From a virus, in the IMG/VR virus record IMGVR_UViG_3300048091_000226, positions 1-53,415 of that record: DNA of 53,415 bases; one strand, written 5' to 3'. The translations under genes and the position numbers were made by a program. The notes under the pieces are model-generated. The model did not search any database. It was given only the letters and a program-made list of their open reading frames with translations, and was not told where the DNA came from. Shown one piece after another: positions 3,708 through 51,964 of this stretch (its first letter is position 1; each line of letters starts with the position of its first letter).

Positions 3708-4526
3708 ATGAAGTACGAAAAACCTCAGAAAGGAAATCCTCATAATCTGACTATCAAGCAACATGTATTTCCAAGAGCAAGTATCGAAAGGTTTTACAAT
3801 TCAAATGGTTTTGTTTCTGTCTTTTGCAAGGAGCAAGCGAAAGTTATTCCTATGAGATCTTCTAATGATTTTTTTTGTGCCAAGAGAGTTTGGGATCAAA
3901 GAACAGAGGTTTCAATTGGTAAGCAGATCGAAGATGAATTTCAATCATTAGTCAGAGCAATTGAATCAGGAACTGTTACGGACATTGGGTATTTCGAGAA
4001 AAGGGTGGTTGAAGAGTTCTATTCTTTATGGCGAACAAGGCACCGTTTTCTTTTGCACGGACTGGATGACATACCTCTAAATGGCATCGATGGCGAATCT
4101 TTGACTGTAGATCAGCAAGAGCTCATGGAGAAACGTCACGTCATATTTTTCAGAGATGGCATGATGCCGGGGCGGTTCGCCGCAGGAATTCATGTAGTGA
4201 GATATATGGATTATTTTCTGCAATCAAACATGAACATGCAATGGGGGATCGTTCGTTGTGTGGATGGCGAGTTCATAGTTCCAGACTGTTTTGAGGATAT
4301 GATGATTGTTCCGATAGCTCCTAAAATTGCACTCATGGCAGATCAACCAAACTCCATTATAACTAGGGATGAAGTTGCTGTAGTAAATAGAGTGGCAATA
4401 AACCGATCTTCGAAATATTATTTTGCTAGCAACCTTTCTTTGTGTCCTGTAATTTCTTATTCCTCGCCGCGCCTGCAAAGGCTGTTTGCTCCAGACTCTA
4501 CGCAGCAGCCTTTAGCGCTTCGATGA
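3708..4526 (+). CDS. DUF4238-like accessory protein
   Basis: A 272-aa soluble protein whose N-terminus (NLTIKQHVFPRASIERFYN, then GFVSVF) follows the DUF4238 pattern, in which a His-rich 'H-VP+--L+-F' opening is followed by a beta hairpin. No established activity is known to me. It is clearly more A/T-rich than its neighbours and is transcribed against the surrounding minus-strand operon. It converges on, and overlaps by 29 bp, the 3' end of the methyltransferase gene. This is the signature of a moron acquired separately from the phage core, possibly for phage exclusion or host modification. Confidence 0.6.
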   Translation: MKYEKPQKGNPHNLTIKQHVFPRASIERFYNSNGFVSVFCKEQAKVIPMRSSNDFFCAKRVWDQRTEVSIGKQIEDEFQSLVRAIESGTVTDIGYFEKRVVEEFYSLWRTRHRFLLHGLDDIPLNGIDGESLTVDQQELMEKRHVIFFRDGMMPGRFAAGIHVVRYMDYFLQSNMNMQWGIVRCVDGEFIVPDCFEDMMIVPIAPKIALMADQPNSIITRDEVAVVNRVAINRSSKYYFASNLSLCPVISYSSPRLQRLFAPDSTQQPLALR

Positions 4527-5421
4527 TCCGTTGGCCTGCTAGTGGTGGTACCGCGTTGCCGGCCATGTGCATGGTCAAACGATGATTGTCCGGCCGCTTA
4601 GTGTCGGCCGGGAACGACATGGCCGCGAGAGCCTCATTGGCCGAGAGCATTCGCATTTCATCGCCACGCACCAAAGCCCACCGGTCAAGTGTGGTGATGG
4701 TGCCGATCGGCCTATCCAGGCTGCGACCAGTCAGGCCAGAGCCGGATCCGTAGTAGGGCATGATGAAACGATCACCGAAGCGCTCCCGGCCATTTTTCAC
4801 GCGGAGGAGTGTCGATTCAGCCCGGCCAGGCTTCACTACCTTGCTCCAGTTGCCCGCGTCGAAATCGATGAAGGATGAGGCTGGGACATGCCGACGCTGG
4901 TGAAGCTGAAGGTTCAGCGGTGCTTTACTCCTGGTGCAGACCAGAAACAGGCGAACCCGGTGCTGCGGCACGCCGAGATCCGCGCAATCGACCACATGGG
5001 GCGCGATCATGTAGCCGAGCGCTGCCATTGCCTGCGACCACGCGGGGTACAGGGCCCAGGCCGTGAATTCTTCGACGTTCTCGACCAGCACAACTTCTGG
5101 CCGGTGGAACTCGGCAGCCGACACAACCGCCCAGGCTGTTGATCGCGATGCGTCGTGCTGAGCGTTCCCAGACTTCTTGCCGCGCGCCTTCGAATGCCCC
5201 TGGCAACACGGGGAGGCGAGCATGATGTCGTGGGCCGGAACCTTTGACCAATCCGCCTGGTGCAGGTCTTGGCAGATGTGAATTGCATCCGGGTGGTTGG
5301 CGCTGTGCCACTCGACGGCGACAGGCCAGTGATTGGCGGCCCAAAGAACGTCGATGCCGGCATTGCGGGCACCGGTTGACCATCCGCCGAGACCGGCGAA
5401 CAAATCGATTGCTGTGGGCAT
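4498..5421 (-). CDS. DNA (cytosine-5) methyltransferase
   Basis: A 307-aa C5-cytosine methyltransferase that would transfer methyl from SAM to a cytosine in a specific duplex site. Motif I is DLFAGLGGWS (residues 6-15). Motif IV reads SPCCQGHS with catalytic Cys73; the usual proline before it is Cys72. Motif VI is ENVEEF, motif VIII GVPQHRVRLF and motif X GNAVPP. All core motifs are present in order. The target-recognition region between VIII and X is short. No restriction endonuclease is adjacent, so it is an orphan enzyme, probably protecting phage DNA from host restriction or affecting regulation. Its target site cannot be read from sequence. Confidence 0.9.
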   Translation of the reverse strand: MPTAIDLFAGLGGWSTGARNAGIDVLWAANHWPVAVEWHSANHPDAIHICQDLHQADWSKVPAHDIMLASPCCQGHSKARGKKSGNAQHDASRSTAWAVVSAAEFHRPEVVLVENVEEFTAWALYPAWSQAMAALGYMIAPHVVDCADLGVPQHRVRLFLVCTRSKAPLNLQLHQRRHVPASSFIDFDAGNWSKVVKPGRAESTLLRVKNGRERFGDRFIMPYYGSGSGLTGRSLDRPIGTITTLDRWALVRGDEMRMLSANEALAAMSFPADTKRPDNHRLTMHMAGNAVPPLAGQRIIEALKAAA

Positions 5422-5470
5422 GGAGAAACCTCGCGGTTATAGTTCGCCGCATATTTGGATGGAGGTGGTT

Positions 5471-5920
5471 GTGAGTCAGCGAGAATTGGGCGTTGTAGTT
5501 GCCGAGTTTCGATCGGCACTGAAAGAATTGGTCGAGATGGGACATTGGTTCGGTGTCAGCATAACCAAGGAGTTCCCACACGCCTCGTGCGATGACTCCT
5601 CGTTGCTGTTGGCCGCTTACCTCGCTGACCAAGGCTATCCGGGCGCGCTGAGAGTTCACGGGCAATCTGGAGGGTGTAACCGCGAACTGAACTCACACGT
5701 ATGGCTTGACTTGGACGGTACGCTCATCGACATAACCGGTAGCCAGTTCGAGGACTATGAGCAACCAGAAATCGTAATTGCAGAGCACGATCCATTTCTT
5801 GCAAGCTTTAAGCCTGAGCGAGAGCGGAGAATTGCGGATTTCCGCGAAACGGAGCATCTGCCCAAATATCATTTCTATAAGGATTACGACGCAATCTGCG
5901 GGCGCATACTGGCAATTTGA
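5471..5920 (+). CDS. Putative Cys-His-Asp (transglutaminase/papain-like fold) protein
   Basis: A 149-aa protein. The GTG at 5471 is chosen because GGAGG lies 5 nt before it; an in-frame ATG at 5459 overlaps that ribosome site. Conserved-looking features are Cys40 in HASCDDSSLLLAAYL, His76 in NSHVWLDLDG and Asp87 in LIDITGSQF. This spacing and the helix after the Cys match small transglutaminase/cysteine-protease-fold proteins common in Pseudomonas genomes. No signal peptide is seen. It starts 50 bp from, and is divergent to, the methyltransferase, and converges on the PP-loop gene. The enzymatic role is inferred from the triad only. Confidence 0.6.
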   Translation: MSQRELGVVVAEFRSALKELVEMGHWFGVSITKEFPHASCDDSSLLLAAYLADQGYPGALRVHGQSGGCNRELNSHVWLDLDGTLIDITGSQFEDYEQPEIVIAEHDPFLASFKPERERRIADFRETEHLPKYHFYKDYDAICGRILAI

Positions 5921-5924
5921 GGGG

Positions 5925-6794
5925 CTAGTCCCCGCAGAAGCAGCCTATGTCTTCCGCCAGATAATCGAAATCGAGATCCGTTTGCCTAGCGCGCTGATCC
6001 GCTGACCAGGCCAGTGACCGGTAGTTAGGCCGGTCCTGTCGGAACACCTGGCCGAATCGCTCCTCGGCGCCAGACCACCAGATCACTCGGGACGGGTCGT
6101 CCATGATGGTCTTAATCAACTTGCCTTCGTTCTTCTTCCAGCACAGGTCGCAGTTGCCGAAGTCGGAATTCATACCGAGATCGAAAGGCTGGGCTGTCCA
6201 GAACACGTCAACGTCCTCCTTGGTGACGCCAGCCGAGTAGGAGGGGCAGACGTTATCCCAGCGCGTTCCGCCGCGGTCATTGGCGGCCATCATGCGGTGG
6301 TAGCGTTTCGGCTCGTCGTAGCGGATGCCGACGACACAATCCCATTCGGTGTAGCCAAGAACTCGCATGTGCTTCTCGCCGATCTTCACCTTCAGGTAGG
6401 CGGTGCACATATTGTTGGAGAAATTTGGCAGCACCGGCGGCAGGTTCTTTTCGGCCTTCCGGTACGCGGCGTAGTACTCGAGCATCATCGTGAACGGTTC
6501 GCCGTTCCGACTGGCCGTTTCGAAGTCCACTAGCCGGTACCAGGGAGCGTCATCCGGCTGGCCGTAAACGCGACACCACTCCATCCAGACGATGTTCACG
6601 CCCCAGCGTTTGGCGATCTGGTCGATGAAGATCAGCGTTTCCTCGCGCTCCTTGCCGGTGTTCTGGAAGAACAGGTGCACGTCTTCCGGTAGGGCACCGC
6701 CATGCGCTTCGAGAATTTTGTAGACCATGTGCCCGCTGGTGCGACCACCGCTGATGCCGATCTGGGCCGGACCCGTGATCAGATAGGGATTCAT
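5925..6794 (-). CDS. PAPS-reductase-like PP-loop ATPase
   Basis: A 289-aa protein of the adenine nucleotide alpha-hydrolase (PP-loop) superfamily, usually annotated in phages as phosphoadenosine phosphosulfate reductase. The N-terminal loop reads ISGGRTSG (residues 14-21), the SGGxxS pyrophosphate-binding signature, followed by HLFFQNTGKEREETL, the usual 'NTG' strand and helix. Cysteines NCDLCWK and the terminal CFCGD could bind a metal or Fe-S cluster. No sulfate-assimilation genes are near, so a nucleotide or nucleic-acid modification role is as likely as sulfate reduction. It ends 4 bp from the stop of the convergent Cys-His-Asp gene. Confidence 0.8.
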   Translation of the reverse strand: MNPYLITGPAQIGISGGRTSGHMVYKILEAHGGALPEDVHLFFQNTGKEREETLIFIDQIAKRWGVNIVWMEWCRVYGQPDDAPWYRLVDFETASRNGEPFTMMLEYYAAYRKAEKNLPPVLPNFSNNMCTAYLKVKIGEKHMRVLGYTEWDCVVGIRYDEPKRYHRMMAANDRGGTRWDNVCPSYSAGVTKEDVDVFWTAQPFDLGMNSDFGNCDLCWKKNEGKLIKTIMDDPSRVIWWSGAEERFGQVFRQDRPNYRSLAWSADQRARQTDLDFDYLAEDIGCFCGD

Positions 6795-9860: not shown

Positions 9861-9891
9861 AAAAAAAGCCCGATCGGAACCGGGCTTTGTT
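9861..9891 (-). terminator. Strong intrinsic terminator inside the early-left operon
   Basis: On the minus strand, AAAGCCCG (complement of 9881-9888), an 8-nt loop and CGGGCTTT are followed by a run of T (complement of A at 9861-9867). This is a textbook Rho-independent terminator, placed after the non-coding stretch 9892-10495 and before the membrane-protein gene. Confidence 0.8.
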
Positions 9892-10274: not shown

Positions 10275-10329
10275 TGGTTGCATCCCGCAGCTCACCCAGT
10301 AAGCGGGCAGGCGGTGGCCACCTATTGAA

Positions 10330-10442
10330 GCTGCATTGGAATGTCGGTCCTGACCAAGATGCCTAACTACGTCCGCCCGTTCGCATACAAACAGTTGGCC
10401 TGGATCAGCTTTTTTCATGGGGCGCCGACATTCCGATGCAGC
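10330..10442. repeat. 18-bp inverted repeat, 77 bp apart
   Basis: GCTGCATTGGAATGTCGG (10330-10347) faces CCGACATTCCGATGCAGC (10425-10442), with one mismatch. Weak inner complementarity (TCCTGACC against GGATCAG) could extend it into one long stem-loop of about 113 nt. Confidence 0.6.
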
Positions 10443-10495
10443 CTCTTTCGAGGCGTCGGGCAGTTATCGTCAGGCTGACGTGGCGCTGGTTGGTC

Positions 10496-11170
10496 TTACC
10501 CGTGAGTGATGGATAGATCACTGATCACGCAAATCGAAGCGTCTTCAGGATCGGTGGAGTCGGAGTAGTCGATTTGGTTGTACACACCGCCGTGGAAAGC
10601 CAGCGTTTTGGTCTCCCAGGTGTTGTCGAGACGCATGATCGCGGAGGTGGATTTGGCGCCGTTGCAGCTGGCAGATACCGATACAGCGCCGCTCGAATTG
10701 GCGTGAATGTTGATCTTGAAGAGTGCACCGAGCGGCACGTTATCCAATACTGTCGAGTTGACTGGATCGTCTTGAAGGTAACTCGACCGGAACCCCATGG
10801 TGATTTTGCCTTTGTTCCAAAATACCTTTACCGGTGGGCGTTCTGAACCCTGCACATGAATTTGGCCGATCACGACCTTCTGCAACGAATTGACCTTCGT
10901 CAGCCGCATTTCTTGACGGCACCAATGGTCTGCGGCGCTAGAAAACAGCCAGTAACCAGGCTCTTTCCATTCACAACGAGTCCGATGGACGCTTTTACTG
11001 GAGGCGCCAAGGGTGGGCGCCGTCATCTGCAACGATCCGTCAGGAAGCATTGAGACAACACTGGGGCATTCGATCAGCGCTCGCCAACCAATCAGGTCTA
11101 GGGAGATAGGGTTCGTGTCGGAAATTGGAAGCGGGGTGGCGATGATGAAATTGCTGATATCTACAGTCAT
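10496..11170 (-). CDS. PL7-family alginate lyase-like protein
   Basis: A 224-aa single-domain protein with the three signature regions of polysaccharide lyase family 7. They are RTRCEWKE (about 63-70, corresponding to the RSELR-type strand), QIHV (Gln103, His105) and HGGVYNQ (Tyr197), in the right order and spacing for the concave beta-jelly-roll cleft that beta-eliminates alginate. The catalytic Gln, His and Tyr and an arginine are retained. No signal peptide is present, so export would need lysis or a virion. The length fits a bare PL7 catalytic domain. It lies in the early-left operon after csrA. A depolymerase acting on host alginate, or a related beta-sandwich lectin-like use of the fold, are both possible. 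Confidence 0.8.
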   Translation of the reverse strand: MTVDISNFIIATPLPISDTNPISLDLIGWRALIECPSVVSMLPDGSLQMTAPTLGASSKSVHRTRCEWKEPGYWLFSSAADHWCRQEMRLTKVNSLQKVVIGQIHVQGSERPPVKVFWNKGKITMGFRSSYLQDDPVNSTVLDNVPLGALFKINIHANSSGAVSVSASCNGAKSTSAIMRLDNTWETKTLAFHGGVYNQIDYSDSTDPEDASICVISDLSITHG

Positions 11171-11219: not shown

Positions 11220-11265
11220 GCTTGATGTAGGCCTACATCAAGCTGCCCACTCTGTGAATGGGCAG
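11220..11265 (-). other. Two adjacent hairpins between csrA and the PL7 gene
   Basis: A 24-bp perfect palindrome at 11220-11243 (arms GCTTGATGTAGG and its complement) abuts a second hairpin at 11243-11265 (CTGCCCA ... TGGGCAG). Neither has a U-tract, so they look more like an RNA processing/stability element or a protein-binding site than a terminator. Confidence 0.6.
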
Positions 11266-11281
11266 AAGTGATGCTTTTCGA

Positions 11282-11455
11282 TCAGGCCTTAGCTGCATCC
11301 TGGATACGCTGGTAGATCTCTTGACGATGCACGGCGACCTCTTTCGGTGCCTCAAACGCCAGCTTTACCTGCTGCCCGCTAACGCTCAGCACCGTGATGC
11401 TGATGTCGTCATTGATGCGGATGGATTCGCTTGGCTTGCGGGTGAGTATCAACAT
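11282..11455 (-). CDS. csrA: Carbon storage regulator CsrA/RsmA
   Basis: A 57-aa CsrA/RsmA RNA-binding dimer: [18 protein letters not shown], the central [16 protein letters not shown] and the [10 protein letters not shown] helix, with Arg in VHR, the key RNA-contact residue, intact. The family binds GGA in hairpin loops at ribosome sites to control translation. ATG 11455 is chosen over a longer frame because CsrA proteins begin MLxLTR and AAGGAGCAGGACC precedes it; that leader itself holds two GGA motifs, so autoregulation is possible. It is the first gene of the PL operon. A phage copy could interfere with the host Gac/Rsm network or tune phage mRNA. Confidence 0.95.
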
Positions 11456-11756: not shown

Positions 11757-11786
11757 AATATGAACTATAGGTTCACATCAGGTCAA
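11757..11786 (-). promoter_or_regulatory. Putative early-left promoter PL
   Basis: On the minus strand TTGACC (complement of 11781-11786) is followed after 18 nt by CATATT (complement of 11757-11762). One operator lies between the two boxes and a second overlaps upstream of the -35, as expected for a repressed PL. It would drive csrA through int. Confidence 0.6.
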
Positions 11787-11800
11787 GTACCAAAAGTACA
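11761..11800. promoter_or_regulatory. Left operators (two 15-bp sites)
   Basis: TGAACTATAGGTTCA (11761-11775) and AGTACCAAAAGTACA (11786-11800) are partial dyads whose centres are 25 bp apart. They share the pattern TGWAC-N5-GTWCA with three sites at the cI/cro region, which makes binding by the same prophage repressor likely. Confidence 0.65.
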
Positions 11801-11892
11801 TATTTTTGCGTGAGTTCAGATTTGTTGGATTTCGCACGAATGCGCGTAGAGGGATTTACCGCGAACAGATGGTTCGCTATCCTCTGCCACGA

Positions 11893-11908
11893 CTGGATGG
11901 ATGTACAG
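11893..11908. promoter_or_regulatory. Imperfect LexA box before the DUF1654 gene
   Basis: CTGGATGGATGTACAG fits the CTGT-N8-ACAG LexA consensus with one mismatch (G for T at position 4). It ends 17 bp before the DUF1654 ATG. Confidence 0.45.
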
Positions 11909-11925: not shown

Positions 11926-12231
11926 ATGGCGCAGAACAAAGCGAAACCAGCAGCACGAGTTGAGATGTCCGGCATAGAGCGCTTAGGTCTGCGAGTGTCG
12001 TCAATGATCAATCACCCAGTCGCGCAGACTCAGCGTTGGGTGACGATCTATCGCCTGGACACGGACGGCGATCGAGAGTGGGATGAGGTGATGGGCTTGC
12101 TATCCGAAACGGACGGCATAGACATGACGTTCAACGACGACGAGTCGGTGACGCTGAAGTGGGAGGCGAGCGCCGATGAAGACCGGCCGGTTGAAGTTTA
12201 CGAGCCAGTAGAAGAGGCGGCACCTTTCTGA
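11926..12231 (+). CDS. DUF1654 family protein
   Basis: A 101-aa protein starting MAQNKAKPAARVEMSGIERL. The order IERLGLRVSSMINHP, then RWVTIYRLDTDGDREWDEV, then LLSETDGIDMTFNDDESVTL and KWE is the DUF1654 pattern, a family largely restricted to Pseudomonas. The ATG at 11926 has GGAG 8 nt upstream and begins near the conserved block. It is transcribed away from PL and has an imperfect LexA box in its promoter region. The function is unknown; the context suggests a DNA-damage-linked role. Confidence 0.8.
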   Translation: MAQNKAKPAARVEMSGIERLGLRVSSMINHPVAQTQRWVTIYRLDTDGDREWDEVMGLLSETDGIDMTFNDDESVTLKWEASADEDRPVEVYEPVEEAAPF

Positions 12232-13635: not shown

Positions 13636-14547
13636 TCACACCAAGTGAGCGTTCCACACCAACAGCACCCGGGCCTGAATGTAGGTTTCATCAGCCCTGA
13701 TGGTTTGCGGTGGGTGTCTCGTATTATCGGAAATCATACTGATCTGATCGTCGCCGAGCCATTGCAGGCGCTTGATGTACAGGTGACCTTCCCAAGAGAA
13801 CATGTAGATCCCATCACCAGCGAATTCACGGATGCTGATATCGACGAGGAGGGGGTCGCGGTGCTTGATCGTTGGTGCCATCGACTGGCCCCACCCTGTC
13901 ACCATCTTGAGATGGAAGTGTTCCTTGAACTCAACTCCCATCTCACGAAGATGTTGGGGGCTTACCCTCACATCCTGGAGCATCTCCGGATAATCGTGTG
14001 GAATTTGCCCGCCACCCATAGCGGCACGGACGTCGTAATGTGCAATCCACACCTCATCACCGGCCAAGCCTGGTCGATAGTAGTCGACCTCGATGACACC
14101 GCCCCCATCGTCAGCTTCCGCAACTGCAAGTAACCGCCTGCGAGCATCATCAGACAATCCTTTCCCTTGCTTGGAAAGCATGTTCCGGACGATATCCGCT
14201 GCCGATTGGGGGTGATTCTCAGTATCGCCACTTTCGACTTCAGCGAGCTTTGAAAACTTGGGCTCGTCACCGGCACCATGCTGAAGCCATTCGATTTTTA
14301 CACCAAGCGCGCCTGCAATAGCGTTCATCTTGGCGGGACCTGGCAAGGACTCACCGTTTAGCCACTTGCTCGAAGCCTTAGGCGTGACTTTTGCTATTTC
14401 TGCCAGCCGAGCGCCTGCGCCCCACTGGTCAATGCCGTGGGCGGATAACGCTTTTTTGAGGCGAGCAACGAACGCTGCGCGGATTTCTTCTATCTGAACC
14501 ATTGGTTCAGCATCGCACGGCCTTGCATGTACTTTCAGTTCCGACAT
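13636..14547 (-). CDS. cI-like repressor, HTH plus S24 peptidase
   Basis: Up to 303 aa. The N-terminal HTH lies at about residues 30-80 (ARLAEIAKVTPKASSKWLNG), followed by a linker and a C-terminal LexA/S24 serine-protease domain with the nucleophile in GQSMAPTIKHRD and the general-base Lys in LYIKRLQ. Such repressors keep lytic promoters off and self-cleave with RecA after DNA damage. Two starts are possible: ATG 14547, which would be nearly leaderless and place one operator within the coding region, or ATG 14502 (MVQIEEIRAAFVARL), whose ATG sits in operator 14495-14509. It is divergent from cro across the right operators. Confidence 0.92.
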   Translation of the reverse strand: MSELKVHARPCDAEPMVQIEEIRAAFVARLKKALSAHGIDQWGAGARLAEIAKVTPKASSKWLNGESLPGPAKMNAIAGALGVKIEWLQHGAGDEPKFSKLAEVESGDTENHPQSAADIVRNMLSKQGKGLSDDARRRLLAVAEADDGGGVIEVDYYRPGLAGDEVWIAHYDVRAAMGGGQIPHDYPEMLQDVRVSPQHLREMGVEFKEHFHLKMVTGWGQSMAPTIKHRDPLLVDISIREFAGDGIYMFSWEGHLYIKRLQWLGDDQISMISDNTRHPPQTIRADETYIQARVLLVWNAHLV

Positions 14548-14566
14548 AATATGTACTGTAAGTTCA
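14495..14566. promoter_or_regulatory. Right operators (three 15-bp sites)
   Basis: TGAACCATTGGTTCA (14495-14509), TGTACTTTCAGTTCC (14528-14542) and TGTACTGTAAGTTCA (14552-14566) are partial dyads of the form TGWAC-N5-GTWCA. Two flank or fill the PR promoter and the first covers the start of the shorter cI reading. They match the two sites at PL. Confidence 0.65.
14523..14550 (+). promoter_or_regulatory. Putative early-right promoter PR
   Basis: TTGCAT (14523-14528), a 16-nt spacer and CATAAT (14545-14550) lie 36 bp before the cro-like ATG. One operator fills the spacer and another lies at the predicted start, which fits repression. Confidence 0.6.
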
Positions 14567-19246: not shown

Positions 19247-19674
19247 CTCTAGCCAACCCAAAGCTGTTCACACAGAAGCCCGTGCGGGCTAAGCCAGTCG
19301 ACCGCGAAGGGCAGGAACAGGCTGCGCTCATGCGCGAGCTTGAACTGCGCTACCCGGCGGTGTTCGAACTGATCTACCACGTTCCCAACGGTGGGCACCG
19401 TGTCAAGGCGGTCGCTGGCAAGTTGAAAGCCCAGGGTGTGAAGGCCGGCATTCCCGATCTGGTGCTGACCATGGCCCGTGGTGGGTTCTTTGGCCTGTAC
19501 ATCGAATTCAAGGCCACGCCGCCGAACGACGCCGCGATCTCGCCAAGCCAGCATGAGCGGATCCGCAAGCTGAATGAGCAGGGGTATCTGGCAGTGGTGT
19601 GCCGCGGGCACTTCGATACGGTGGAGCAGATCCGGGCCTACTTGCGACTCGCTCCTACAGTGGTGGCCGCATGA
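19243..19674 (+). CDS. VRR-NUC domain nuclease
   Basis: A 143-aa protein of the VRR-NUC branch of the restriction-endonuclease fold. The active-site elements are NGGHRVKAVAGKLKAQGV, then KAGIPDLVL with the catalytic Asp, and LYIEFKA with the E-x-K pair; SPSQHERIRKLNEQGY follows as in family members. Stand-alone phage VRR-NUC proteins are Holliday-junction-resolvase-like or structure-specific nucleases, so recombination or repair of replicating phage DNA is likely. It is coupled on both sides by ATGA. Confidence 0.85.
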   Translation: MTLANPKLFTQKPVRAKPVDREGQEQAALMRELELRYPAVFELIYHVPNGGHRVKAVAGKLKAQGVKAGIPDLVLTMARGGFFGLYIEFKATPPNDAAISPSQHERIRKLNEQGYLAVVCRGHFDTVEQIRAYLRLAPTVVAA

Positions 19675-20957
19675 CAATAACCGTGGCCTTCTCCGATGCC
19701 GAGCTCCGCCGCCGCGCTGAGGATCCGGCCGCCGTGTTGATGCGTGACCCGCGACACCCGGGGCTGTACTTCCGCTTCACCGAGGCTCGTCCGCGTGGAA
19801 CCTGGAGCCTGGTAGTGCGCAAGAAGTGGAACAAGATCGGCGCGTATCCCGACTTGTCGGCCAAGGCGGTGTTGGCCGCGCTGCCAGATCTGCGCATGCG
19901 ACTCAGCGTTGATCCGGAAGCGGGTGCCGCCGTATCGCCGTGGAAAACGCTGGGCGAGCTGTTGACGTGGTACGCCGACCGCATGAGCCGCGACCGCAAC
20001 CTCTCCGACAAACGCAAGGCGACGGGTAAATCAGCCATCGCTTGCCACCTGATCCCGCGCGTGGGCGATCTGGCGCTGGCCGATGTCCGTCACGGCACCC
20101 TCGACACCCAACTGATGTGGCCACTGCAGGAGACCCTGTCGCTGGAGTTTGTCCGGTTGATCTTCGGCCTGCTGGTGGTCGCCTGTCGTCAGGCACACAC
20201 GCTGGGCCTGATTCCGACCAACCCGATGACGGGTATCAAGTTCAGCGACTTCTCCAAGACCAAGATCAAGGCCAAGCCAGCGCGCCTTCGTGGCGTTCAG
20301 GTTGAGGGTTTGCTTGCACAGCTGCAGGAGCTGTTCGAGATTGACCCGCAGCCGGCCATGCTCGCCCTAATGATGCTGTGCCACGGCACCCGCATCGGTG
20401 AGACGCGCAAAGCCCAGTGGTCACACATCAGCCTGGCCGAACGCACCTGGTATCTGCCGGTGGGCAACACCAAGACCCGCGTCGAGCACTCCCTCCCACT
20501 GACCGATCAAATCTGCAGCCTTCTAATCCGGTACCGCGCAGCGCAACAGGCGAGCCATTACGACGGCGATTGCCTGTTTCGCTCCCACAGTGGCAAGGGC
20601 ATGAGCGAAGGGCAGGCCAGTGCCGTGTTCACCGGGCTGGGGAAGGGCGAGTGGAGCAGTCACGATCTGCGCAAGTTGGCCAGGACCGGCTGGGCTGACC
20701 TCGGGATCGACTTCCTGATCGGCGAGATGCTGATCAACCATGCCATGGGCCACAACGTGCAGGCCTACATCCACACCACAGTTGAAGAGCGCAAGCGTGC
20801 AGCCCTTGAACTGTGGCACGGCCATTTAGACGGTAAGGGTTTTTCCCTGATTCACGGGTTGAAGGACGGTAGAAACGAAAATTCGGGTAATCCGCTGGAA
20901 ACCGCAGAACATAAGGCCTGCGAGGCCATTCACGAATCAACCATAGGCGAGGTTTAA
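19671..20957 (+). CDS. Second tyrosine recombinase
   Basis: A 428-aa tyrosine recombinase with a DUF4102-like N-terminal arm (DPRHPGLYFRFTEARPRGTW) and a full catalytic domain: CHGTRIGETRKAQW (box I Arg), SSHDLRKLARTGWADLG (HxxR), NHAMGHNVQAYIHTT (His and Tyr). ATG 19671 overlaps the VRR-NUC stop. It lies in the early replication operon, far from attL and opposite to int, so it is unlikely to be the ordinary integrase. It could resolve replication multimers or be an orphan acting at another site. Pseudomonas lambdoid prophages carry similar genes here. Confidence 0.85.
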   Translation: MTITVAFSDAELRRRAEDPAAVLMRDPRHPGLYFRFTEARPRGTWSLVVRKKWNKIGAYPDLSAKAVLAALPDLRMRLSVDPEAGAAVSPWKTLGELLTWYADRMSRDRNLSDKRKATGKSAIACHLIPRVGDLALADVRHGTLDTQLMWPLQETLSLEFVRLIFGLLVVACRQAHTLGLIPTNPMTGIKFSDFSKTKIKAKPARLRGVQVEGLLAQLQELFEIDPQPAMLALMMLCHGTRIGETRKAQWSHISLAERTWYLPVGNTKTRVEHSLPLTDQICSLLIRYRAAQQASHYDGDCLFRSHSGKGMSEGQASAVFTGLGKGEWSSHDLRKLARTGWADLGIDFLIGEMLINHAMGHNVQAYIHTTVEERKRAALELWHGHLDGKGFSLIHGLKDGRNENSGNPLETAEHKACEAIHESTIGEV

Positions 20958-34605: not shown

Positions 34606-37600
34606 ATGGCTGATACAGACGTTCAGGGGATGTTGGTTCGCATCGAAGCGACCACTGCGCAGTTGCGGCAGGAAATGGCCCGTGCGGATTCGAGCGTTGC
34701 CCAAGCGTCTGGAAAGATCGACAAGAGCTTGGCCGATATTGATGAGGCTTTTGACCGAACAGGTGACAGTGCCCATAGCGCTGCTGGATTGATTAAGAAC
34801 GCGCTGGCTGGAGCGATCGGTGCTGCGTCTATCGGCAAGATTATCGAAACAGCCGATTCCTACGGGCAGATGTCAGACCGAATTGGGATGGCAACCAGTA
34901 GCGTGGGTGAGTATGACCTGGTGCAACAGCGATTGCTGGAAACCGCCAAACGTACTTACCGCCCACTGAGCGAGGCGCAAGAATTATATATCCGCACATC
35001 TGACAGCCTTAAGTCGATGGGCTACGACACTGGCCAAGCGCTGGACGTCATGGATAGCTTCAGTTTCTTGTTGGTCACCAACTCCGCTTCTGCTGACAAG
35101 GCCAGCTCGGCGATCGATGCCTACTCAAAAGCTCTCCAGACCGGCAAGGTAGAGGCGGATGGTTGGCAGTCGATACTTGCTGCCATGCCTACAGTGGTAG
35201 ATACGATCGCTAAATCTACCGGTAAGACAGCAGAGGAAATCCGTAGCCTTGGTGCCCAAGGCCAGCTAAGCCTGGACGTTTTAACCGAAGGCCTGCAAAG
35301 GTCATCTGAGGCAAATGGTGTCTTGGCGGATAGCATGAGTGTCGCGGTGCGGGATGCGATTCAAAACCTTTCGAATGCATTCACTGTTTATGTCGGCCGA
35401 GTCAACGAAAGTACAGACGGTACTGGCATTCTCGCAAGCGGGATTAGCGGTCTCGGGGACAACTTTGAAACTCTTGCAGAAATTGCCGGTGTAGCAGCAG
35501 TTGGGGCTATGGCAGCTTTTGTCCGCGGATTAGCTGCCTCCGCAGTTGCATCAGTTATCGCTACCAAAGCAGCAGTTGAAGACTCTCTGGCTCGCCGAGC
35601 ACAGGCAGCGTCAGTTCTGCTTGCCGCACAAGCCGACCAGAAAAAAGCTCAAACAGCGGTTTTTTTAGCTGAAAAAGAGTCACTGGCAGCGAAGGGGACG
35701 GCCGTACAGACGCAGCTGTCACTTCAGTTGGCAGAAGCAAGGATGGCGGAAACTCGTGCCACCAACGCTGTCGCTGCTTCCCAGGCAGCCGTAGTGGGAC
35801 CAGCCAGGACAATTTTAGGCTTACTTGGCGGTCCGGTAGGAATCGCGATGTTGGCGGTCGGCGCCGCCACTGCGTTCCTCACTCTGCGAGATAACACCAG
35901 CGTGCTCGAGGAGAAATTGGGGAACCTCAGTGACCCGCTGGACAAGTTGATCGAGCGCTTCAACAAGCTCAACCGTGCAACTCAGTCCGTCACCCTGCGC
36001 GAGCTGAAAGCATCGATCGAAGATGCTGAAGAAGATTTGTCTACAGCGGCCGGATCAATTGCTTTTGAGTTTCAAAGCAGTCTGACCAACGCAGGATTGG
36101 CGGGTGCCTCTGGCTTTATGGGCGGTATTGCACCACTGCCTGCCGAGTTCCAGGCCGCTATGGACGTAATTTCCAAGGCGTCGGCCGATCAGTCTTCCGG
36201 CATGGTCGTGGATTGGAAAGCAGTATCTGACCAGGTCCGAACAGTTCCTGGTGTAACGCTTGAAATGATTGATGCGCTCGAGCGAAGCGGCGGCGCGGCA
36301 GCAGAAAAAGCTGCGCTAGTAGCAAGCCTGAAAACCGCTCTTGCGGAACTCACGGGAGAAACGGACGCCAACACCCGTGCTGAACGTGAAAATGCTGCAG
36401 CACGAGCAGGGGCGGTGCAGGAAGGGCAGAAGTATCTTGATCAGTTGCTTAAACAGCTGGCCGCGTCGAAAGACAAGACCAATCTGGAAGCAGCCAACCG
36501 TTATATCGAAGAGAACACCCTGCTCACGGAAGGACAGGTCGCAGCGATCCGCTCAGCCGCAGCCGCGAAGGATGCGGTAAAAGCTGCTGATGATGCAGCG
36601 GCCAAAGCTTCGAAAAAGCACACCAGCGAATCGGAATCATCAGCCAAGCAGCAGTTAAAAGCTTTCGAATCGACTGAGGAAAGCTACAAACGTCAGATCG
36701 AGTTGATCAACACCACCGGTGAAAAGCAGAAGGATGCCACCGAGGTTGCGAAGCTTTCCTTCGAATTGCAGGAGGGCAAACTTGGCAAGCTGACCGAGGC
36801 GCAGAAAAAACGGCTGCTGGGCATGGCCGCCGAGCTCGATGCGCTGAATAAGATCAAAAAAGCCAATGAAGACGACCTGAAGCTGACGGCCTTCAAGGCG
36901 GCTCAGGCCACTGGCACGCAAACAACTCAGGACGGTTTCGATCAGGAGCTGGCCGGCATCGGCATGGGCGACAAGGCCCGGGACCGGATGCGTGCGGACC
37001 TGGCGCTTCGGCAAAAGTACGCGGCTGACTTGGCCAGCTTGAACGAACAACGCAACACCGGACAGATTTCGCCAGAGCTCTATGCCAGCGAGACGAAAGT
37101 TCTGCAGGATGAGCTCGGGAAGCGGCTGGCTGCCCAACAGACCTACTTCAGCCAGGTGGATGCCGCCCAGTCCAACTGGTCAAACGGTGCGGCGGATGCG
37201 CTGCAGGACTACGTTGACCAGGCTGCCGATGTTGCCGGCCAAACCAAGCAGCTTTTCACCAGTGCCTTCAGTGGGCTGGAGGATGGCATCGTCGACTTCG
37301 TTAAAACGGGGAAGCTGTCCTTCAAGGATATGGCTGACTCGATTATTGAGGATTTGATCCGCATTCAGGTCAGACAAGCCGCTGCGGGCTTCCTCAGCAG
37401 TGCATTCAGCGCATTCACGGGTTGGGGGGCTGGCAGCGGAACCATGACCGGCTTCAGCGAAGGCGCGATGGTGGCCAACGCCAAAGGTGGTGTCTACAGC
37501 TCTGCCAGCCTGTCATCGTATTCTGGCGGTGTCTACGACACGCCGCAGACCTTCGCCTTCGCCAAGGGCGCCGGCATCTTCGCGGAAGCCGGCCCCGAGG

Positions 37601-39071: not shown

Positions 39072-39470
39072 ATGCGCTACCGAGACTGGACAACCCGTCT
39101 GAACGACGTGATCAAGGCCGCCCAAGAGCGGCCTTTTTCATGGGGTGAATTTGACTGCTGCCTGTTCGCGGCTGACTGCACTTTGGCCATTTGTGGCGTG
39201 GACCCGGCCGAGAACTACCGCGGCAAGTACACGACCGAGACCGGTGCCAAGCGGCAACTGAAGAAGCAGCACGGTAGCCTCGAGGCGGCATGGGATGCCC
39301 GTTTCGCAAGGGTGCCGCTGACCTTCATTCAGCGCGGAGACGTAGTGTTGTACGACGCGCCTGGCGGGCGAAGCATGGCTGTGTTCTGGGCAGGTGATTT
39401 CTGGGCAACAACTGACGACGGCGCAGCCCGAGTCGAATGCGAGCCACTGGCCGCGTGGAGGGTTGAATGA
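39072..39470 (+). CDS. NlpC/P60-like tail-tip peptidase (DUF6950-like)
   Basis: A 132-aa protein: MRYRDWTTRLNDVIKAAQER, PFSWGEFDCCLFAADCTLAI, FIQRGDVVLY, AVFWAGDFWATTDDG. The FSWGEFDC motif supplies a cysteine in the NlpC/P60 manner, and RGDVVLY is the next conserved strand. In lambda the K protein has this position and probably helps open peptidoglycan. A normal catalytic His is not obvious, as in DUF6950 proteins. The stop overlaps the J ATG. Confidence 0.7.
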   Translation: MRYRDWTTRLNDVIKAAQERPFSWGEFDCCLFAADCTLAICGVDPAENYRGKYTTETGAKRQLKKQHGSLEAAWDARFARVPLTFIQRGDVVLYDAPGGRSMAVFWAGDFWATTDDGAARVECEPLAAWRVE

Positions 39471-49671: not shown

Positions 49672-50307
49672 ATGCCTCTCACCCAGCAGCAGCTGCTGCA
49701 GATCCTCCCGAACGCCGGCCCAGTTGCCGGCGTTTTTGTGCCCGCGCTGAACGATGCGATGGCACGGTTCAAGATCGAAGGCCGGCTGCGCGTGGCGGCC
49801 TTTCTCGCCCAGATCGGGCATGAGTCAGGCCAGTTGCGCACGCTGGTCGAAAACCTGAATTACAGTGCCGAGGGCTTAATCAGGACTTGGCCGAAGCGGT
49901 TCAATCTGGTGACCGCAACCAGTGTCGCGCGCAAGCCCGAGCAGATCGCGAACATCGTCTACGCCTCTCGGCTGGGCAATGGGCCTGCCGTGACGGGCGA
50001 TGGTTGGCGGTACCGGGGCAGGGGATTGATCCAGGTCACCGGCTGGGTCAACTATCAGGCATGCGGATCGGCCCTGGGCCTGGACCTGCTGACCAGGCCA
50101 GAACTGCTGGAGCAGCCGGTTTACGCTGCGCTCTCTGCCGCCTGGTTTTGGTCGAGCAACGGCCTGAATGAATCGGCGGATGCTGGCCAGTTCGAAGCGA
50201 TCACTCGGCGTATCAATGGCGGCCTCAATGGGCAGCCAGAGCGATTGAAGTTGTGGGCGAAAGCGTCGGCGGTGCTGTCGACCAGGACGCATGCCGCTAT
50301 CCTGTAG
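49672..50307 (+). CDS. GH19 endolysin (chitinase-like muramidase)
   Basis: A 211-aa glycoside hydrolase family 19 enzyme. AAFLAQIGHESGQLRTLVEN supplies the catalytic Glu in GHES. NYSAEGLIRTWPKRF, YRGRGLIQVTGWVNY and SAAWFWSSNGLNESADAG are the following conserved blocks, ending ITRRINGGLNG. Phage GH19 proteins cleave peptidoglycan glycan strands. There is no signal or SAR sequence, so release needs the holin at 23.4 kb. No endolysin is encoded next to the holin. Confidence 0.92.
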   Translation: MPLTQQQLLQILPNAGPVAGVFVPALNDAMARFKIEGRLRVAAFLAQIGHESGQLRTLVENLNYSAEGLIRTWPKRFNLVTATSVARKPEQIANIVYASRLGNGPAVTGDGWRYRGRGLIQVTGWVNYQACGSALGLDLLTRPELLEQPVYAALSAAWFWSSNGLNESADAGQFEAITRRINGGLNGQPERLKLWAKASAVLSTRTHAAIL

Positions 50308-50333: not shown

Positions 50334-50564
50334 ATGGAAGGTGTAGAGCTGAGTCCAAAGATTGAACGCGAAGCCGACAAGCTTCTTGCTCAGATCGCTC
50401 AGGCGGATTCGATGATTGTTGCGGCGAAAGCCGGCGCACGCGCTGAGGGGTTTGTGCTTGGCTTGGAATCGGCCCGCGCGTTGACTGAAGCGACCATTGA
50501 TCAGCTCTACGTCATCTTCGATTCCGCGACTGAAGAGCGGCTGAGGTCGCTGGCCGCAACTTAG
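50334..50564 (+). CDS. Small helical protein after the endolysin
   Basis: A 76-aa protein, MEGVELSPKIEREADKLLAQ, then IAQADSMIVAAKAGARAEGF and a C-terminal helix. It has the place of Rz but no N-terminal membrane helix or lipobox, so it is not a recognisable spanin. AAGGTGG precedes the ATG. Its last 4 bp overlap the end of the convergent SRAP gene. Confidence 0.55.
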   Translation: MEGVELSPKIEREADKLLAQIAQADSMIVAAKAGARAEGFVLGLESARALTEATIDQLYVIFDSATEERLRSLAAT

Positions 50565-51256
50565 AACAAGCCGTCTTCCTCGGCTGGCTTAATTAAGTCG
50601 GGCCCTTGATTGCGTACGTTGCCGATCGCACGGTCCACCTTGAACCACTCAAACGCCTCAGTTGGCTCGCCCTGGTGCATTACCATCTGTTCGGCGCGCT
50701 CCTTGGGCGTGGCCGGGTCTAGCCATTCCCGGGCGAGCTCTGGCGATAGCGTCACCGGCCGGCGGTCGTGGATGTCCACCATGCCGCCGGCGCTGTCGGC
50801 GGTGATGATGACGAAGCCGTCATGCTCACTCGGCTCATGCTCGGCGTTCGGGTATTGGCCGATCGCTGCGCACAATATCGGCGCCCGATCTCGGCGGCGG
50901 ATCAGGTACGGCTGCTTCTTCGGTCCGCCTTCATCCACCCATTCAAACCAGTTGTTGATGGCGATGATTGCCCGGTGCGGCCAGATTGCCCGAAAGAAAT
51001 GGCCGTGGGCGACTTTCTCCGCCCTGGCATTGATCGGTGCTGCGCGGTCCTTGGCCCAATGCGGGCGCCATCCCCAGCGAACCATGTCGGCGTGCAAGTA
51101 TTTTCCTTCCTGGTGAAAGATGGCGAGCTGGGTTGTCGGGGCGGCGTTGTACCGCTCGAAAGGCCGATCACCGGTGCTGTTGACCAGAGGGTTGGGCATG
51201 CTGAGTGCCGCCACGAAGTCGTGGATGCCATTGTATTGGGAAAGTCGTCCGCACAT
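50561..51256 (-). CDS. SRAP (HMCES/YedK) abasic-site-protecting protein
   Basis: A 231-aa SOS-response-associated protein. The initiator Met is followed by the catalytic Cys2 in MCGRLSQY, which forms a thiazolidine crosslink with abasic sites. Asn and Glu lie in PINARAEKV, the NWFEWVDEG strand follows and His is in VDIHDRRPVTL. These residues and the length match YedK/HMCES proteins that shield abasic sites in single-stranded DNA. ATG 51256 is the only start exposing Cys2, and AGAGAGG precedes it. It follows the coiled-coil gene by 2 bp in an operon with a LexA box. Confidence 0.93.
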   Translation of the reverse strand: MCGRLSQYNGIHDFVAALSMPNPLVNSTGDRPFERYNAAPTTQLAIFHQEGKYLHADMVRWGWRPHWAKDRAAPINARAEKVAHGHFFRAIWPHRAIIAINNWFEWVDEGGPKKQPYLIRRRDRAPILCAAIGQYPNAEHEPSEHDGFVIITADSAGGMVDIHDRRPVTLSPELAREWLDPATPKERAEQMVMHQGEPTEAFEWFKVDRAIGNVRNQGPDLIKPAEEDGLF

Positions 51257-51258
51257 GT

Positions 51259-51579
51259 TCAGCCTCTCTGATTGCCCGCTTGCAACTCGCGAATGGTCCT
51301 TTCTTTTTGATCCAGGACCAGCGTCAAGCTTTGGATCTGGGAAAGCTGGTCGGTGGTTTCCGCCTCCAGGTTCGCCATCCATGCCCGCTTCTTTTGGAGT
51401 TCGGCTGACAGTTGGTCGTTCATTTCGACAAGGGTGGAAATGTTTTCCTTCGCAGCATGCAGTTGCCGCCTCAGCTCTTCGATGTCCTCCTCGAGCATAT
51501 GGGCGTAATGCTTGATGGTTTCTAGCCTGGTCGGACTGCCGAGCCAATCGCTGGTGTCTTCGATTTCGTAGGGATCCAC
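51259..51579 (-). CDS. Coiled-coil protein, first gene of the LexA/SRAP operon
   Basis: A 106-aa acidic protein, MDPYEIEDTSDWLGSPTRLE, followed by a nearly continuous coiled coil (about 20-100: HMLEEDIEELRRQLHAAKEN, then NDQLSAELQKKRAWMANLEA). No enzymatic motif. The LexA box ends 18 bp before its ATG, so it and SRAP are expected to be SOS-induced. It may be a partner of SRAP or a separate damage-response adaptor. Confidence 0.6.
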   Translation of the reverse strand: MDPYEIEDTSDWLGSPTRLETIKHYAHMLEEDIEELRRQLHAAKENISTLVEMNDQLSAELQKKRAWMANLEAETTDQLSQIQSLTLVLDQKERTIRELQAGNQRG

Positions 51580-51597
51580 GGTCGCGCCTTACAGATA

Positions 51598-51613
51598 CTG
51601 TTTGGATATACAG
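51598..51613 (-). promoter_or_regulatory. LexA box of the SRAP operon
   Basis: CTGTTTGGATATACAG is a perfect CTGT-N8-ACAG LexA site; flanking TA on each side extends the dyad to 20 bp (51596-51615). It lies just before the coiled-coil gene's ATG. Confidence 0.85.
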
Positions 51614-51741
51614 TAATCGAGGCGTGAAAATTTCGCGAGAGTGCGGCGACGAGGGGCAGGTTGTGAGTGGAGCGTCCATTCTTTTGCGAACTGAGTAGGT
51701 ATGTAGGGAATGACCACCAATGTTGCGACCTAGGGACTGAC

Positions 51742-51786
51742 GGCTTTTGGCCGCTCTCTGCCTGTCGTGACAGGCAGCAGTCGACC
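51742..51786. repeat. Pseudomonas-type intergenic repeat, left part (interrupted)
   Basis: The segment reads GGCTTTTGGCCGCTCTCTGC, then CTGTCGTGACAGGCAGCAGT and CGACC, and resumes after the MITE with CAAAGCGGCC at 51969. The CCTGTC-GT-GACAGG core is a hairpin. I know this arrangement from pseudomonad intergenic regions. A degenerate copy lies at 52741-52799. Confidence 0.6.
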
Positions 51787-51964
51787 GATTCTGTTGAAAA
51801 AGTCGGCTGTGTTTTTTAAGACAGAAAAGCACGCGTCGGAGAGTGAAATCCTGAATGTTCGCAAAGCCTTTCAGGCTGAGATTTCACGTAGTAGCGTGCT
51901 GAAGAGGCGCTTTCACTGACACATTCTGCGGCATTCTGAGAAAACCGACTTTTTCAACAGAATC
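51787..51964. mobile_element. MITE-like element, 178 bp, with 20-bp terminal inverted repeats
   Basis: GATTCTGTTGAAAAAGTCGG (51787-51806) is repeated inverted without mismatch at 51945-51964. The element is flanked by GACC at 51783-51786 and 51965-51968, a 4-bp target duplication. It interrupts the intergenic repeat. An inner long imperfect hairpin spans 51828-51900 (AGCACGC/GCGTGCT, GTGAAATC/GATTTCAC). No ORF. The end sequence CTGTTGAAAAAGTC recalls IS5/IS903-like ends, but the parent is not identified. Confidence 0.8.

Follow-up and report, generated by a model that had tools for sequence, protein, structure and literature searches.

Phage enzymes that degrade polysaccharides are mostly known as parts of the virion that serve for entry. 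Alginate lyase activity was reported from a phage of Azotobacter vinelandii, a close relative of Pseudomonas (Davidson et al. 1977, as cited in PMC12772287); that phage is unsequenced. Full-length homologues of this gene are carried by the jumbo phage Psa21, where the gene is annotated as PL7, and by the vB_PpuM phages, where it is unannotated, but these are large phages, and the Psa21 gene lies in a tRNA-rich region and not behind a CI-controlled PL promoter. Among PL7 lyases, PA1167 of P. aeruginosa has been reported to be active on polyMG and to prefer it (PMC8829089). Unlike PA1167, the gene described here sits in a phage early operon. The geometry of this operon matches that of the lambda early-left operon and of lambdoid morons in its arrangement of CI, OL/PL and leftward accessory genes but, unlike in lambda, the cargo comprises csrA and a polysaccharide lyase. 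LexA-controlled antirepressors, which may be relevant to the control of the operon, are known from coliphage 186 (Tum) and from Salmonella (the Gifsy antirepressors). The open-access literature on phage and prophage PL7 in Pseudomonas, on Psa21 and on AMG alginate lyases yielded no description of the gene, nor any account of an early phage PL7 or of repressor-PL7 remnants.

The window analysed here is the whole stretch of 53,415 nucleotides of IMG/VR record IMGVR_UViG_3300048091_000226, a viral record which by gene content belongs to a lambda-like temperate siphophage. Its PL7 gene would encode an induction-controlled soluble enzyme. The gene is common to temperate and jumbo Pseudomonas phages, strongly selected, and kept together with its repressor in chromosomes that lack the rest of the phage; through it, alginate breakdown would be coupled by simple genetic means to prophage induction and DNA damage.

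The PL7 gene and its predicted product

The PL7 gene (10496..11170, minus strand) runs from an ATG at 11170 to a stop at 10496 and comprises 224 codons, exactly where the first-pass annotation had placed a PL7-like gene. The Pfam family PF08787 (Alginate_lyase2) matches it end to end (positions 1-225 of 225) with an E-value of 9.5e-40 and 137.2 bits, the curated cut-off being 29.7 bits, and the protein is assigned to PHROG 31475 (8e-142), a family without assigned function. A sequence search against solved structures placed PA1167 (1vav) on top (7e-11), and a weaker match was obtained with the fungal beta-glucuronan lyase 7nde, also a member of PL7 (E 3.9e-5; fold TM 0.74). The AlphaFold model (pLDDT 91.9, pTM 0.89) has a beta-jelly-roll fold, and its best Foldseek match was again PA1167, with a TM of 0.83 and 23% identity; the fold is well supported. 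In fold, in length (222 aa in PA1167) and in the positions of the catalytic Arg, Gln, His and Tyr, the protein is similar to PA1167 and to PL7 lyases such as A1-II'.

The catalytic residues were located by placing a profile of 34 relatives on the PDB chains of A1-II', which included the catalytic mutants 2zaa (H191N/Y284F), 2zab and 2zac (both Y284F). They correspond to R65, Q103, H105 and Y197, and all four are invariant across the alignment of the 34 relatives. All three PL7 signature regions are present, as had been claimed, but QIH alone is exact (Q103-I-H105), the other two being found in altered form. The RxELR region, RSELRE in PL7 lyases such as PA1167, reads RCEWKE (R65-C-E-W-K-E), and the YFKAGxYxQ region reads FHGGVYNQ (F192-H-G-G-V-Y197-N-Q, within AFHGGVYNQ), so that His193 takes the place of the motif lysine. 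Judged by these residues, the active-site chemistry looks intact and the protein is predicted to be a lyase acting on alginate; given the departures from two of the three classical motifs, RCEWK and His193, substrate preference may have shifted away from alginate.

The dN/dS of the gene, about 0.045-0.07 in phages and in two groups of chromosomal remnants and about 0.045-0.055 in the phages by themselves, indicates strong purifying selection. The idea that the gene had been repurposed, with loss of lyase function, is disfavoured by the invariant catalytic residues and a dN/dS near 0.05. The protein consists of a single catalytic domain of 224 aa without a tail-attachment domain, and simple hydropathy revealed no signal-like hydrophobic stretch at its N-terminus, which agrees with the absence of a signal peptide noted at first.

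Early-left control and the leader

The integrase gene is located at 396-1463 on the minus strand, and the plus strand carries the replication genes from 16359, the genes for terminase, portal and capsid from 25583, the tail tape measure gene at 34606, tail fibre J at 39467 and the endolysin gene at 49672. The CI-like repressor, with HTH and peptidase S24 domains, is encoded at 13636..14547 on the minus strand, although translation may begin at an internal ATG (14502). The palindrome GWACN5GTWC occurs eight times in the window against 1.53 expected, a number reached in none of 100 shuffles. Six of the eight form two clusters of three, one upstream of csrA-PL7, being the putative OL (11762..11875, with palindromes at 11762-11774, 11787-11799 and 11863-11875), and the other beside CI, being the putative OR (14496..14565; 14496-14508, 14529-14541 and 14553-14565).

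A putative PL promoter (11757..11793, minus strand) is formed by overlapping pairs of sigma-70-like hexamers at 11793-11764 and 11786-11757. Leftward hexamers of this kind number five in the region against 3.3 expected by chance, so the weight of the promoter comes from their overlap with the OL cluster and not from their count. From OL/PL leftward follow the csrA/rsmA-like gene (11282..11455, minus strand, 57 aa), a structured leader and PL7. The motif shared by OR and OL, together with the putative PL reading into the gene, makes it well supported that PL7 is a CI-controlled early-left gene, and the earlier assignment to a repressed early-left operon is upheld. Similar palindromes were found upstream of PL7 in about a dozen relatives, several of which have GWACN5GTWC in pairs there, and are absent in the remaining ones, as expected if their immunity differs.

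A fixed pairing of csrA with PL7 was considered and dropped. A minority of relatives have a csrA gene, and among the loci examined it lies near PL7, besides the window, only in L006, L015, L035, L051, L055 and L064; csrA is an optional neighbour. Downstream of PL7, a terminator-like GC hairpin followed by a T-run (AAAGCCCGGTTCCGATCGGGCTTTTTTT, 9861..9888, minus strand) was seen by eye and is absent from the scan output. A near-perfect inverted repeat, GCTGCATTGGAATGTCGG ... CCGACATTCCGATGCAGC, with its arms about 80 nt apart, is also located downstream of the gene (10329-10445).

Directly upstream of PL7, the leader contains a conserved 39-nt stem-loop (11236..11274, minus strand), with an outer stem of 5 bp, an internal loop and an inner stem of about 7 bp. 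A second hairpin, GATGTAGGCCTACATC (11224..11239, minus strand), overlaps the 3' strand of the first, and folding of the window leader gave a z of -4.6. The stem-loop exists in two sequence types, A and B, with one architecture; pairs were counted on type A only, as a mixed alignment shifts the inner stem by one column. Of the pair cells in type A, 97.3% hold standard pairs and 15 show changes in both partners. None of 500 shuffles and no slid version scores as high for covariation, a result that is inflated by relatedness and in which the double changes are confined to two pairs. The stem-loop is widespread in Pseudomonas temperate phages and also precedes other early-left genes (L021, L035, L006, L065 and others); among 170 loci fetched by the stem-loop alone, 14 have PL7. 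Antitermination, RNA processing and a boundary for cassette exchange are candidate roles. Rfam gave nothing convincing for the leader and no match for the stem-loop, and nothing at gathering thresholds for the whole window.

Divergent from PL is a DUF1654 gene (11929..12231, plus strand), preceded by a LexA-type box (11893..11908, plus strand) with two mismatches to the pattern searched. The window CI has AMGGG in place of the expected Ala-Gly cleavage site. In the fetched loci, a LexA-type box lies about 40 nt upstream of 135 of 136 DUF1654 genes, against 90 of 5000 background stretches, and DUF1654 accompanies AMGGG repressors in 68 of 69 loci but is missing from all 38 loci with Ala-Gly repressors, the independence of both tallies being overstated by related sequences and by some genomes fetched twice. 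These tallies suggest SOS control. As the simplest reading, we infer that DUF1654 is an antirepressor under LexA control that acts on repressors without the usual self-cleavage, which would make it a candidate family of such antirepressors in many Pseudomonas prophages. It shares with 186 Tum and the Gifsy antirepressors an SOS box before a small phage gene adjoining a repressor without the usual cleavage site, a likeness of gene setting. DUF1654 is named in PMC13028781, where no function is given.

Several further features of the window were observed. A second LexA-type box (CTGTATATCCAAACAG, 51598-51613, minus strand) with one mismatch lies inside a long ORF and precedes the SRAP domain encoded there (50561-51832); its position suggests that this ORF starts later and that the SRAP gene is SOS-controlled. 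A second tyrosine-integrase-like gene is present in the early-right region (19599-20957, plus strand), in addition to the one near the left end, and genes for a DNA methyltransferase and a PAPS-reductase-like protein are close together in the early-left region (4498-6794). No tRNA sites were found in the window.

Distribution in phages and chromosomal remnants

A total of fifty PL7 loci were found in IMG/VR, most of them 88-98% identical; five have 59-62% identity and lie in contigs of 109-317 kb. Homologues are present in twelve sequenced phage records, including jumbo Psa21 (57%), the vB_PpuM phages (36-40%) and AH02 (28%). The PL7 family was detected in 53 of 300 sampled Pseudomonas genomes. 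The proposed Pseudomonas host range is supported. The plasmid collection contained no PL7 relative, and the idea of mobilisation by plasmids was dropped on this ground. On the phylogenetic tree, long and fully supported branches set the phage subfamily apart from PA1167-like and PA1784-like genes, the deep placement being unsure owing to long branches. The jumbo-phage copies cluster together, and chromosomal remnants nest among the temperate-phage copies. The subfamily is found mainly in phages, both temperate and jumbo. The jumbo phages with PL7 are not known to lysogenise. In three of them the gene was observed in or beside tRNA-rich stretches, annotated in Psa21 (L052) and recognised by eye, from tRNA-like upstream sequence, in L045 and L049.

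In at least three chromosomal contexts, hardly anything remains other than an intact S24 phage repressor gene and an intact PL7. In the first group, of seven loci, folE adjoins PL7 wherever the stretch is in range. Each has an XRE+S24 repressor gene, which is intact; a terminator-like hairpin comes next, then a promoter carrying palindromes of the ATGGGAN2CCCAT type, the leader shared with phages and, directly downstream, PL7, which is followed in several loci by an integrase fragment. These repressor genes and integrase fragments led to revision of the view that the PL7 copies of the fluorescens group are plain host genes. The second group (six loci, L058 type) has the S24 domain of the first but a different HTH domain. 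In the third group, of nine loci, each of which has aroE and/or pbpG within range, DUF1654 accompanies the repressor and PL7; a hol-like gene (phrog_2658) is divergent from the repressor in seven of the nine. At the aroE site, the putative operator motif TTAGCN5GCTAA occurs between the hol-like gene and CI, at the repressor start, and again directly upstream of PL7. Compact loci consisting of hol-like gene, S24 repressor, DUF1654 and PL7 were seen at the aroE/pbpG site in L268, L279, L280, L281, L286, L287 and L290.

Both genes are intact in the 22 loci of the three groups, with a median dN/dS of 0.05-0.18 for PL7 and 0.08-0.13 for CI. In 52 chromosomal loci from an evenly drawn genome sample, some repeating genomes fetched earlier, an S24 repressor homologue is co-directional and at most 2 kb upstream in 17 and further away in 5, and is absent from the fetched flanks in 30; the latter include 15 loci at the doxX site that keep PL7, with no repressor homologue found. 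Several Pseudomonas lineages appear, from these gene contents, to have lost the remainder of the virus while retaining just the repressor and the enzyme gene.

Function of the enzyme

The explanation that we favour, with a probability of roughly 0.6, is that PL7 is a soluble, induction-controlled alginate lyase, made early, stored in the cytoplasm and released when the cell lyses. In the lysogen, CI bound to OL would block PL and keep PL7 silent; upon prophage induction or early in infection PL would be freed, and csrA and PL7 transcribed. The enzyme would build up in the cytoplasm, inert there without substrate, leave the cell with the virions at lysis, and cut the alginate produced by the dead cell and by those around it, allowing virions, and surviving kin, to disperse through the mucoid matrix. 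A link to the SOS response is probable, by way of a LexA-controlled DUF1654 acting against a repressor without the Ala-Gly site, as in the window phage; where Ala-Gly is present, RecA-stimulated self-cleavage of the repressor would be the alternative route. This scheme would accommodate the first-pass suggestion that progeny may be freed by the enzyme upon lysis. Against the scheme, an enzyme needed only once the cell has lysed could equally well be made from a late promoter, without early expression. The altered RxELR and YFKAGxYxQ motifs also count against it, as do the 30 chromosomal loci without a repressor homologue in the fetched flanks. In the folE-site remnants, moreover, lysis genes were not recognised, and the enzyme would depend on some other lytic element for its release.

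Repressor-PL7 pairs have survived in chromosomes from which the remaining phage genes are gone, so a benefit to phage progeny cannot be the sole explanation. Possibly, though we hold this only tentatively, the benefit is to the host: upon DNA damage some Pseudomonas cells would release a matrix-cutting enzyme, kin would disperse or feed, and phages would carry the pair as a moron. The three contexts reduced to little beyond repressor and PL7 (one also with DUF1654 and the hol-like gene), intact and under purifying selection, speak for this, as do the frequency of the family in Pseudomonas genomes and its retention at the doxX site. However, PL7 is also kept in phages, including jumbo phages, and SOS control of the remnants is inferred from the repressor type. 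A broader and equally speculative proposal is a damage-responsive 'lyse and dissolve' module, in which the S24 repressor would control PL7 to one side and, at the aroE site, also the hol-like gene to the other; DUF1654 would represent a new family of antirepressors under LexA control. Phages would exchange this module, Pseudomonas lineages would have retained it in at least two chromosomal contexts, and damaged cells would release the matrix-cutting enzyme as a shared good.

It is unlikely that the substrate is another polyuronate, such as a glucuronan-type exopolysaccharide, instead of alginate. The match to 7nde in both sequence and fold and the alteration of two substrate-side motifs would fit such a substrate, but among solved structures the nearest in both sequence and fold belong to alginate lyases, and pseudomonads are alginate producers.

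Still less probable is an intracellular or periplasmic fail-safe, by which PL7 would clear misplaced alginate and keep an infected mucoid host productive until lysis. Such a role was suggested for PA1167 and PA1784 (PMC8829089), the former sharing the fold of the phage enzyme, and early expression would fit it. The phage protein, however, has no visible export signal. Alginate polymerisation, moreover, takes place at the inner membrane, and the polymer is absent from the cytosol.

In contrast to the cytoplasmic enzyme freed by lysis that we prefer, a virion-associated or late tail depolymerase is very improbable: that is the usual setting of phage depolymerases, and in PpuM-Peetri the PL7 gene adjoins tail-region genes, though on the opposite strand, but the window gene, as first proposed, does not look like that of a late tail protein by position or architecture: it lies in the early-left region under OL, the tail genes are over 20 kb away, and it has neither the tail-gene neighbours nor the virion-attachment domain typical of tail-spike and tail-fibre depolymerases.
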